64,000 bases of DNA from an uncultured Alphaproteobacteria bacterium (GTDB lineage Bacteria; Pseudomonadota; Alphaproteobacteria; HIMB59; GCA-002718135). Both the position numbers and the translations under genes were made by a program. The stretch is taken from assembly GCA_902602515.1 (NCBI GenBank), contig CACKRG010000001.1:1-64000 (forward strand), written 5' to 3'. Position 1 is the first letter of the stretch, and every line of letters starts with the position of its first letter. Under the pieces are notes generated by a model, which was given only the letters and a program-made list of their open reading frames with translations, ran no database searches and had not been told where the DNA came from. Of the stretch, positions 16,037 through 18,899 are shown piece by piece.

Positions 16037-17320
16037 CTATTGCTTTTGATAAGCTTCAAGACCAAGTTCAGCTTTGTCAATTCCAGCCATTTGAACTTCA
16101 TCAGGTACTCTCAGCCAACCCATAGATTTCATTACTAGTGAAATAACATAGCCAGGAATAAACCCTGTTGCTATCATAGTTATTGCACCAACCAACTGTC
16201 CAACAAAAGATGTCGGTGGAATATCTCCAGATGCAGGATATCCTGAAGCAAATATACCAACCACTAAAACACCTAAAATACCTGATACACCGTGTACTGA
16301 AACAGCACCGACACAGTCATCGATTTTAAATGTATTATGTAACCAATTGTTTGCTGGTATAATTACTATGCCTGCTACAACACCCATAATAAATGCGAAA
16401 CCAGGATACCAAATATCTAAACCACCTGCGCAAATAAATATACCTGCTAGACCTCCAGACATCATCCAGAACGGATTTCCTTTACTGTACCAAAATGCTC
16501 CAATCATTCCACCTGATAAACCCATTAGGGTATTAAATGCGAATGAAGAAAGAGTAGCCGGTGCACCATAAATGTTAATCCAACCACCTAAGTCTGAACC
16601 TGCCCAAATTAAACAGCCTCCAAGGAAACCAAAGAAACCAACTATAAGCATTAATAAACCTATAAATGATGAGACTAAGCTGTGACCTTCAATTTCATTT
16701 GCGGTACCATCTTCATTATATTTTCCAATACGAGGGCCAAGGTTTAAAAGAACTCCAAATGCGAACCAACCTGCAATTGTATGTACAACACCAGCTGCTC
16801 CAACATCGTGATATCCAAAACCTGTAACTAACCATCCATCAGGATGCCATCCCCAAGATGCTCCAATAATCCAAACTACTGAACCAAGTATTACAGCTAA
16901 GAAAGTAAAAGCACTTAATCTAATTCTTTCAATAACTGCTCCTGAAAAAATTGAAGCTGTTGTACAAGCAAATAAAGTAAATGCTGCCCAGAAAACACCT
17001 GTCGCCTGGTCACTTAACATTGGTCCCATAGAAACATTCCAAGGTGTTCCATATCCTTCTAAATCAATAGGTACGAAACCTGCAGGGAATGCTAAATAAA
17101 TGTACCATCCAAATAACCAAAAAGTTGGTATCATAAATGCAAAGGCTAAAAGGTTTTTTACACCTGAAGAAACAGCGTTCTTCATACGTGTTGCACCTAC
17201 CTCATACATTAAGAAACCTACATGGATGATAACCATAAATGCAGTACACCACCAATAATAGGCTTCCATTGAAACGTTAGCCTGGGTGGTGACAAAGGTA
17301 TTTAACTCCTCTAAAGTCAT
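16037..17320 (-). CDS. amt: Ammonium transporter (Amt family)
   Basis: A 427-residue inner-membrane channel with about eleven helices. The twin pore histidines are H180 (GVVHTIAGW) and H343 (SVHGVSGILG), and D172 in HDVGAAG is the conserved acidic residue before the first. It has no cleavable signal peptide, unlike E. coli AmtB, and begins with a periplasmic-type N-terminus (TLEELNTFVTTQANVS) before the first helix. It carries NH4+/NH3, possibly methylammonium. Its leader contains a glutamine-riboswitch-like element and a GGAAGGAG ribosome site, so expression is probably tied to internal glutamine. It is divergent from a glutamine-synthetase-family gene and lies next to methylated-amine genes. 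Confidence 0.93.
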   Translation of the reverse strand: MTLEELNTFVTTQANVSMEAYYWWCTAFMVIIHVGFLMYEVGATRMKNAVSSGVKNLLAFAFMIPTFWLFGWYIYLAFPAGFVPIDLEGYGTPWNVSMGPMLSDQATGVFWAAFTLFACTTASIFSGAVIERIRLSAFTFLAVILGSVVWIIGASWGWHPDGWLVTGFGYHDVGAAGVVHTIAGWFAFGVLLNLGPRIGKYNEDGTANEIEGHSLVSSFIGLLMLIVGFFGFLGGCLIWAGSDLGGWINIYGAPATLSSFAFNTLMGLSGGMIGAFWYSKGNPFWMMSGGLAGIFICAGGLDIWYPGFAFIMGVVAGIVIIPANNWLHNTFKIDDCVGAVSVHGVSGILGVLVVGIFASGYPASGDIPPTSFVGQLVGAITMIATGFIPGYVISLVMKSMGWLRVPDEVQMAGIDKAELGLEAYQKQ

Positions 17321-17400
17321 ATTATCTCCTTCCGAGTATATAAAAATACCGTTTGACTCATTTAATTATCAATATGGAAGTTTTAGAAATGCTAGATCAG

Positions 17401-17456
17401 ATCTGCGTTCCTTCAGTTCAAAACTTACTTCCGTCTCAATAAGTGAGATGAACGAT
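17401..17456 (-). promoter_or_regulatory. Glutamine riboswitch (glnA RNA-type) in the amt leader
   Basis: Read on the minus strand, the segment shows the glnA-RNA layout. A CGTTC/GAACG stem encloses a TCTCA...TGAGA hairpin, the conserved GACGGAAGTAAG strand, an AGTT...AACT hairpin and the conserved CTGAAGGAACGC strand. These are the consensus pieces known for glutamine aptamers in cyanobacteria and marine metagenomes. It lies about 80 bases before the amt start. An ACTTCC at 17381-17376 could pair with the aptamer GGAAGT (17432-17427) or with the amt ribosome site GGAAGG (17333-17328), which suggests control of translation. The pairing switch is inference. Confidence 0.85.
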
Positions 17457-17573
17457 AATTCTTATTTTTTTATATTTTTTTTACTGAGATTCAACAAGCT
17501 CAAAAGATATTTAAATTTATTGATAATTGCTTTTTTTTCTTGTAATTTCGCGATTTTAATGAGGTAGAATAAT

Positions 17574-18899
17574 ATGTCACAGGATCTTTCAAAAATTGCA
17601 AAACAAAAAAATATAAAATACTTTCTTATAAGCTACGTTGACTTTTTTGGAGTACTTCGCTCAAAATTAGTACCTTCTCAAGTAATAAAAGATATGCAAA
17701 AAGAAGGGGCTGGATTTGCTGGGTTTGCTACTTACCTAGATATGTCGCCTGCTGATCCTGATATGGTATCAATACCGGATCCCTCAAGTTTAATACAATT
17801 ACCATGGCAACCTGAAGTTGGATGGCTTGCAGGTGATTTATGGATGGATGGAAAGCCAGTTCAATCATCACCAAGGGTAATGCTAAAAAATCAAATTAGT
17901 GAACTAAAGAAAAAGAATATGTTTTTAAAATCTGGCGTCGAATGTGAATATTTTTTAATTTCACAAGATGGTAATTCTATTGCTGATGAAAAAGACCAAG
18001 CTTTTAAACCTTGTTATGATCAATCTGCTTTAATGAGGCAATATGATTTAATTAAAGAAATTTGTGACTGTATGATTAAACTTGGCTGGGGTCCTTATCA
18101 AAATGACCATGAAGATGCAAATGGCCAGTTTGAAATGAATTGGGATTTTTCTGACTGTTTAACAACTGCTGATAGACATGTTTTTTTTAAATTCATGGTC
18201 AAAGCACTTGCAGAGAAAAGAGGTTTAAGAGCAACATTTATGCCAAAACCATTTTCAAATAAAACAGGAAATGGTTGTCACGCGCATGTATCCTTATGGG
18301 ATAAAAAAGGTAGAAATATTTTTTTAGATAAAAAAGATAAATTAGGTTTATCTAAAAATGCTTATAATTTTATTGGTGGAGTTATGCATTCAGCAGAAGC
18401 TTTAACAGCTTGGTTTAATCCAACAATAAATAGTTTTAAAAGAATAAACGCACCTGTAACAGACTCAGGGGCAACTTGGTCTCCAAATACAATTACATAT
18501 TCAGGTAATAATAGAACACATATGATAAGAGTTCCAGGCTCAGGAAGATTTGAATTAAGATTAATGGACGGAGCAGTTAATCCTTACCTTCTTCAAGCGG
18601 GAATTATTGCGGCTGGGATGGATGGAATAAAAAATAAAAGAAATCCAGGTAAGCCAATCCATATCAATATGTATGAAGAAGCTAATAAAGTTAAGAATGC
18701 AAAAAAACTTCCAAAAAATCTTGATATAGCTCTTACGAATTTATCAAAAAGTAAAGTAATGCAAAAAGCTTTTAGTCCAAAAACTATTAATTCTTATGTT
18801 AAATTACGTACAACGGAAATTAAACAATTCAAAAAATCCGGTGATAGCAAAAAGAAGGGTATTACCAATTGGGAAAAAACAAACACCCTTGATTGTTAA
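17574..18899 (+). CDS. gmaS: Glutamine-synthetase-family ligase, GmaS/GlnT (type III) group
   Basis: A 441-residue ATP-dependent gamma-glutamyl ligase. The glutamate/metal sites are visible: GVECEYFL (E123, E125), QNDHEDANGQFEMNW (E180, E187), GNGCHAHVS (H236) and the C-terminal RFELRLMDGAVNPY. Length and pattern match gamma-glutamylmethylamide synthetase (GmaS) and rhizobial GlnT, which are close relatives and are often confused. GmaS joins methylamine to glutamate. With tmm, tdm, tmoXWV and mgsABC-like genes within 15 kb, GmaS is the better reading. It diverges from the riboswitch-controlled amt and is followed after 9 bp by an unknown gene. Confidence 0.7.
   Translation: MSQDLSKIAKQKNIKYFLISYVDFFGVLRSKLVPSQVIKDMQKEGAGFAGFATYLDMSPADPDMVSIPDPSSLIQLPWQPEVGWLAGDLWMDGKPVQSSPRVMLKNQISELKKKNMFLKSGVECEYFLISQDGNSIADEKDQAFKPCYDQSALMRQYDLIKEICDCMIKLGWGPYQNDHEDANGQFEMNWDFSDCLTTADRHVFFKFMVKALAEKRGLRATFMPKPFSNKTGNGCHAHVSLWDKKGRNIFLDKKDKLGLSKNAYNFIGGVMHSAEALTAWFNPTINSFKRINAPVTDSGATWSPNTITYSGNNRTHMIRVPGSGRFELRLMDGAVNPYLLQAGIIAAGMDGIKNKRNPGKPIHINMYEEANKVKNAKKLPKNLDIALTNLSKSKVMQKAFSPKTINSYVKLRTTEIKQFKKSGDSKKKGITNWEKTNTLDC

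Follow-up and report, generated by a model that had tools for sequence, protein, structure and literature searches.

Does an RNA element in front of an ammonium transporter gene of an uncultured alphaproteobacterium sense glutamine, and does it then raise or lower production of the transporter? The gene, here called amt-A, lies on the minus strand at 16037-17320 (427 aa) of a 64,000-nt stretch of DNA (the window, meaning the whole stretch analysed), with its leader at 17456-17321. Its product matched PF00909 with 210.4 bits (cut-off 23.2) and scored 208.9 bits against TIGR00836, under the cut-off of 343.3. Among named sequences, those closest to the protein come from single cells and metagenomes labelled as uncultured Alphaproteobacteria, Pelagibacteraceae, MarineAlpha5 and HIMB59. 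The leader is flanked at its far end by a gene at 17574 (plus strand) for a type III glutamine synthetase-like protein (TIGR03105, 625.1 bits). Near amt-A, between 17574 and 25904, we noted two glutamine synthetase-like genes, a DAO oxidoreductase and a glutamate-synthase-like trio (Glu_synthase, GXGXG and GATase), a set that we take to resemble an N-methylglutamate pathway cluster.

We found that the amt-A leader contains a glutamine-I (glnA RNA) aptamer, as the original prediction had proposed. A cmscan search with RF01739 matched positions 17402-17456 (minus strand) over the full model (1-53 of 53) with 63.0 bits (E 1.5e-11; gathering score 35). RF01739 was the only Rfam family to reach gathering level in the 64,000-nt window. 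A degenerate pattern for the aptamer core had a single match in the 64,000 bases and no match in any of 100 shuffles. The conserved strands had been predicted to follow one another in the right order, and all were found on the minus strand: CGTTC (the 5' strand of P1, 17450-17454), GACGGAAGTAAG, then CTGAAGGAACGC with the closing GAACG (the 3' strand of P1, 17406-17410), ACTTCC (17376-17381), the Shine-Dalgarno sequence GGAAGGAG (17326-17333) and the start codon ATG (17318-17320). The P1 strands follow the Rfam structure line, and GAACG is invariant, at the pairs concerned, in 14 of 15 amt-A leaders. The aptamer lies 82 bases upstream of the start codon, and in the RF01739 alignment every conserved aptamer position is intact. 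The glutamine-II class (Downstream-peptide, RF01704) has the same ligand and a similar core sequence; in 8 loci scanned it gave chance-level matches only (15.7-15.9 bits; gathering score 33). The amt-A aptamers also share a GTTGAATCTCA-like sequence about 35 bases upstream of them, which is conserved and may be an operator or the -35 region of a promoter.

The aptamer recurs throughout the alphaproteobacterial family to which the window belongs (f1). It was present in 106 of 110 genomes, with 1 to 8 copies each. We rejected cyanobacterial contamination as its source, given this spread and the Alphaproteobacteria records among the carriers. Beyond the family we used stricter filters, under which weak matches may be lost: no aptamer turned up in the remaining 52 genomes of the order, 6 of 385 genomes in a sample of the class had one, belonging to two families (f1 and f10), and the single carrier in a phylum sample of 398 was the window's own genome. 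In f10, 23 of 32 genomes carry aptamers.

The window's genome has five aptamers: the single copy before amt-A and two tandem pairs, one before a second Amt gene (contig C1, 270,737-270,860) and one before an ATP-grasp gene (contig C10, 16,867-16,989). The same arrangement holds in the family, where single copies precede amt-A and tandem pairs precede amt-B (another type of Amt), glnA or an ATP-grasp operon. Among the best 30 family loci, which are the top-scoring matches and not a random draw, 20 lie before the ATP-grasp gene, 8 before glnA, and one each before amt-A and amt-B. Products were named from Pfam and NCBIfam (CP_ATPgrasp_2, Alpha-E, Bact_transglu_N, Ammonium_transp with TIGR03644 at 559.3 bits, and GlnA at 659.5 bits). 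We found amt-B in 83 of the 110 genomes, 39 of them with two matches, and a tandem pair within 300 bases of 41 of 42 amt-B copies (30 loci). Behind the gene for PII, a tandem pair was present in 20 of 20 stretches (20 of 81 PII loci), before glnA where that gene was read.

amt-A itself was found in 22 of the 110 genomes (E up to 1e-100). Its leader contains the aptamer in 15 of the 22, at 95-120 bases before the ATG, and this recurrence bears out the proposal of a glutamine aptamer before amt; the other seven leaders have no aptamer. Two of the seven (L148 and L154) begin with ATCGTTCAT, the first strand of the aptamer, in a simple hairpin and look decayed. Another four, from one genus (L139, L140, L141 and L152), have AATC-AGGTTTT-AGCC in common, possibly a different control element.

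Covariation supports the aptamer helices in part. In an alignment of the 15 amt-A leaders (A1), changes on both sides were seen at 2 of 3 pairs of P3 and at none in P1 or P2. In an alignment of 19 of the 35 unique amt-B leaders (A2), such changes were seen at 5 of 6 pairs of P2 and 1 of 2 of P3; P1 never varies there, which puts it beyond the reach of covariation. The original prediction had named two outcomes as evidence against itself, a search with the glnA RNA model that gives no significant hit and homologous leaders lacking covariation in these stems; neither was what we found. Judged from sequence, the amt-A leader is best explained as a cis-acting glutamine-I riboswitch: the aptamer is there, and binding of L-glutamine is predicted.

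How might such an aptamer reach the ribosome-binding site? One ACTTCC had been predicted to pair either with the aptamer or with the Shine-Dalgarno sequence. In the RNA, ACUUCC (17376-17381, in the linker between aptamer and gene) is the complement of GGAAGU (17427-17432), an invariant part of the aptamer core at the P2/P3 junction (alignment A1), and its CUUCC is also the complement of GGAAG in the Shine-Dalgarno sequence. Folded without constraint, the window leader pairs GGAAGU with ACUUCC in its minimum-energy structure (-25.0 kcal/mol). A second linker stretch, UUUCU (17385-17389), is the predicted partner of the 3' side of P1 in the free ensemble. We compared linkers with shuffles of themselves. 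Pairing of linker with aptamer core reached -7.34 in amt-A leaders (10 non-redundant of 15; shuffles -5.71, sd 0.48) and -9.20 in f10 leaders (11 non-redundant of 18; shuffles -6.05, sd 0.49), and in neither set was any of 500 shuffles as low. The signal was weaker for seven amt-B linkers (2 of 500 shuffles as low). In f10 the complement is spelled differently from leader to leader (CUACU-CCG, CUGCUUCGG, CUGCUUCUC) and its target does not change.

The linker also makes the folded aptamer more costly. It added 11.04 kcal/mol in amt-A leaders (n=9; shuffles 4.76, sd 0.86) and 7.18 kcal/mol in f10 leaders (n=11; shuffles 4.83, sd 0.60), with 0 of 60 shuffles as high in either set; the amt-A folding tests were run without one leader that has no GAACG (L042). 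The pairing of ACTTCC with the aptamer has therefore held up in the window's free fold as well as in its relatives. An anti-aptamer strand in the amt linker, which in the window consists of ACUUCC plus UUUCU and would compete with folding of the aptamer, is well supported. In the window the folded aptamer lies about 9 kcal/mol above the free ensemble at full length in the model, a gap so large that ligand, magnesium or co-transcriptional folding must supply the difference.

The Shine-Dalgarno half of the proposal stood only in part. When P1 was forced to form in the window leader, CUUCC paired with the Shine-Dalgarno GGAAG (-16.6 kcal/mol), so that the predicted partner of ACTTCC shifted from the aptamer to the ribosome-binding site, as had been proposed. 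However, this exchange did not stand out from shuffles in the amt-A leaders. When the aptamer-pairing bases of the linker were masked in the model, the Shine-Dalgarno sequence opened in 10 of 14 scored amt-A leaders (4 of 60 shuffles as high), and in 5 of the 9 non-redundant ones (20 of 60 shuffles as high). The four leaders that do not open under this OFF model include that of the window, where the ratio was 0.7-0.8 (0.81 in one model); in three close relatives it was 72, 1017 and 6.5. Global openness of the Shine-Dalgarno sequence with and without P1 did not exceed shuffles in amt-A (37 of 40 as high), amt-B (13 of 40) or glnA (15 of 40). Only in amt-B did overlap between the anti-aptamer site and the anti-Shine-Dalgarno site exceed that in shuffles (0 of 300); in amt-A (45 of 300) and f10 (69 of 300) it did not.

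The f10 leaders gave a clearer masking result. All 10 scored leaders opened (0 of 60 shuffles as high), as did 4 of 4 non-redundant ones (0 of 60), after 8 of the 18 leaders had been dropped because they had no recognised Shine-Dalgarno motif. Based on the shuffle tests in relatives, we regard the switch between aptamer and anti-aptamer as well supported for amt, and its sign as not.

Glutamine is the classic signal of plentiful nitrogen. We infer the following course of events. Binding of L-glutamine would keep the aptamer closed and so release the linker. The pyrimidine stretch of the freed linker would then mask the Shine-Dalgarno sequence beside a hairpin, P4 (17333-17360), in which UGAGU (17356-17360) pairs with ACUCG (17333-17337) and the 3' arm lies directly against the Shine-Dalgarno sequence. 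High glutamine would thereby lower translation of amt. At low glutamine, the strands of the aptamer would hold the linker and ribosomes could bind. P4 is paired in 94.6% of cells over the 15 amt-A leaders, and none of its pairs has changes on both sides; the latter counts against this reading, as do the modelled gap of about 9 kcal/mol in the window and the seven amt-A leaders that have no aptamer. The OFF direction fits what the cell should need, since an uptake gene would be expected to drop at high glutamine. The riboswitch probably turns amt down when glutamine is plentiful. The reading as a whole, a glutamine-I riboswitch with an anti-aptamer linker and glutamine-bound OFF control of amt translation, is in our judgement somewhat likelier to be right than wrong.

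Our results might also indicate a switch of the opposite sign, which we consider unlikely. Glutamine would then expose the Shine-Dalgarno sequence and raise amt, and in the unbound state the 5' strand of P1 or other pieces of the leader would cover it. This is the sign of the characterised cyanobacterial versions: of the glutamine riboswitches tested to date, both type 1 and type 2 are activating, according to the available part of a 2018 review (PMC6316151). The window leader has features in keeping with this: its free fold pairs the Shine-Dalgarno sequence partly with the 5' strand of P1, the mean pairing probability between the Shine-Dalgarno sequence and the aptamer region is 0.26, and it belongs to the 4 of 14 amt-A leaders that stay unopened in the OFF model. 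However, that mean probability is at most 0.31 in 12 of the 14 leaders, and the f10 leaders point to OFF. More uptake at a time of plentiful glutamine would also make little sense.

Control through transcription, by termination or RNA decay rather than ribosome access, seems less likely still. Every class of f1 leader that we saw has hairpins between the aptamer and the gene, and Rho-dependent control would be invisible in the sequence. However, the hairpin in the amt-A leader abuts the Shine-Dalgarno sequence, and we rejected an intrinsic terminator because 17200-17640 contains 0 terminator-like sites (0.2 expected in shuffles), which favours translational control. That the window aptamer is a decaying relic that has lost its switching is very improbable: the aptamer is indeed missing from 7 of 22 amt-A leaders, two of which (L148 and L154) keep just the ATCGTTCAT start, and modelled Shine-Dalgarno access in the window does not change, but all conserved aptamer positions are intact and divergent relatives retain the linker complementarity.

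The anti-aptamer mechanism that we favour for amt-A is not transferable to the tandem leaders. Pairing of linker with aptamer core gave no signal for glnA (124 of 500 shuffles as low) or for the f1 ATP-grasp leaders (167 of 500), and the tandem linkers of amt-B and ATP-grasp disturbed the aptamer less than shuffles did (59 of 60 each). Behind the tandem pairs we found instead a conserved AUUUCCAUAGCUAMGCAUGA (amt-B and most ATP-grasp leaders) or AUUUCAUAACUAGAGCAUGA (glnA), followed by a hairpin. The near-invariant part, CAUARCUARRGCAUGA, stands behind the tandem aptamers of three gene types (L002, L023, L003, L009 and others). We rejected another Rfam family as its identity, as a scan of 8 loci gave no match for the element itself.

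The tandem element may hold the Shine-Dalgarno sequence. In a consensus fold of 10 of the 35 amt-B leaders, UUUCCAUA pairs with the Shine-Dalgarno sequence UAUGGAGG around the hairpin. The hairpin has double-sided changes at 4 of 9 pairs; the helix between element and Shine-Dalgarno sequence is 89.8% paired and has none. By eye, three ATP-grasp leaders (L013, L014 and L016) contain an apparent short open frame of 17-20 codons, which lies between the element and the ATP-grasp gene and ends at the start codon of the latter.

GlnD is the glutamine sensor in Proteobacteria, as stated in the available part of one source (PMC4285133). We therefore looked at the protein side of nitrogen control in the family. 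Neither GlnD nor GlnE was found in any of the 110 genomes, including the 10 that are at least 90% complete, and the E. coli and Caulobacter controls were positive for both. Both proteins look lost in the family. The NtrC model matched in 85 of 110 genomes and exceeded its cut-off in none; the Caulobacter control likewise fell below it. Two NtrC-type matches that we tested scored higher against NtrX (377.7 and 336.7 bits) than against NtrC (227.9 and 218.7 bits) and were below the NtrX cut-off too. NtrC has probably been lost as well. PII was present in 81 of 110 genomes, and not in that of the window (86.5% complete).

The original prediction had set the riboswitch in place of the NtrC system. 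The NtrC scores speak for this, but with the Caulobacter control missed by the same cut-off and PII in 81 genomes, the protein side is better described as reduced than as absent. In the six PII sequences read (L129-L134) the T-loop is one residue longer and has no YRG stretch. Loss of the Tyr51 site was considered and rejected: in the one protein aligned to solved structures, the position of Tyr51 is matched by a tyrosine that follows an insertion of one residue. According to the portion available of another study, most genomes of the related SAR11 group have no PII and none has glnD (PMC10030771); absence of GlnD is therefore not peculiar to carriers of the riboswitch.

Much of this system has precedents. 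The aptamer has the same sequence and fold as the published glnA RNA or glutamine-I class (RF01739; Weinberg 2010 and later). Links of the class to ammonium transporters, glutamine synthetase and PII, and its tandem copies, are already in print in the literature available to us in part, which includes a count of 157 doublets and 4 triplets (PMC9481103). In the available part of the 2018 review, the class is restricted to cyanobacteria and unassigned environmental sequences, and the association with amt to environmental sequences (PMC6316151). The system described here differs from that account in its host, an uncultured alphaproteobacterial family, and in its predicted OFF output. The type 1 riboswitch of gifB in Synechocystis has an aptamer of the same class as the window, but the gene it controls encodes an inhibitor of glutamine synthetase, and its effect is to switch expression ON (same source). 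Phage glutamine riboswitches (Melnitz, pelagimyophages) share the aptamer class and have marine streamlined hosts, as far as the accessible text goes (PMC9004378); unlike the element before amt-A, they precede phage genes.

We saw the exact glutamine-I core in at least 120 viral stretches, and of 106 frames downstream in 120 such stretches none was similar to Amt, GlnA or the ATP-grasp protein. One genome (G906) has three identical copies (L231, L232 and L233) before a small protein, by eye like a viral cluster of 6 members (L300). A literature search that stopped short of the primary papers of 2011, 2013 and 2018 found no report of an alphaproteobacterial host or of an OFF type. Both the class of aptamer and its occurrence with ammonium transporters are thus already known; the alphaproteobacterial host is less expected, and the output is possibly reversed.

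These results allow a broader proposal, which we put forward tentatively and hold to be possible rather than likely. In these streamlined marine Alphaproteobacteria, which keep PII but have neither GlnD nor GlnE, RNA may have taken over the sensing of glutamine for the uptake and assimilation of nitrogen. A genome would use as many as eight glutamine-I aptamers to control glnA, ammonium transporter genes of three kinds, and an operon for ATP-grasp, alpha-E and transglutaminase proteins. Their output would be OFF, reversed relative to the cyanobacterial switches, and would use two platforms: an anti-aptamer strand behind single aptamers, and CAUARCUARRGCAUGA with its hairpin behind tandem ones. 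The occurrence in Alphaproteobacteria widens a class that the available part of the review describes as restricted to cyanobacteria (PMC6316151). For this family, a set of glutamine riboswitches in genomes without GlnD would be a concrete answer to how streamlined ocean bacteria sense nitrogen.
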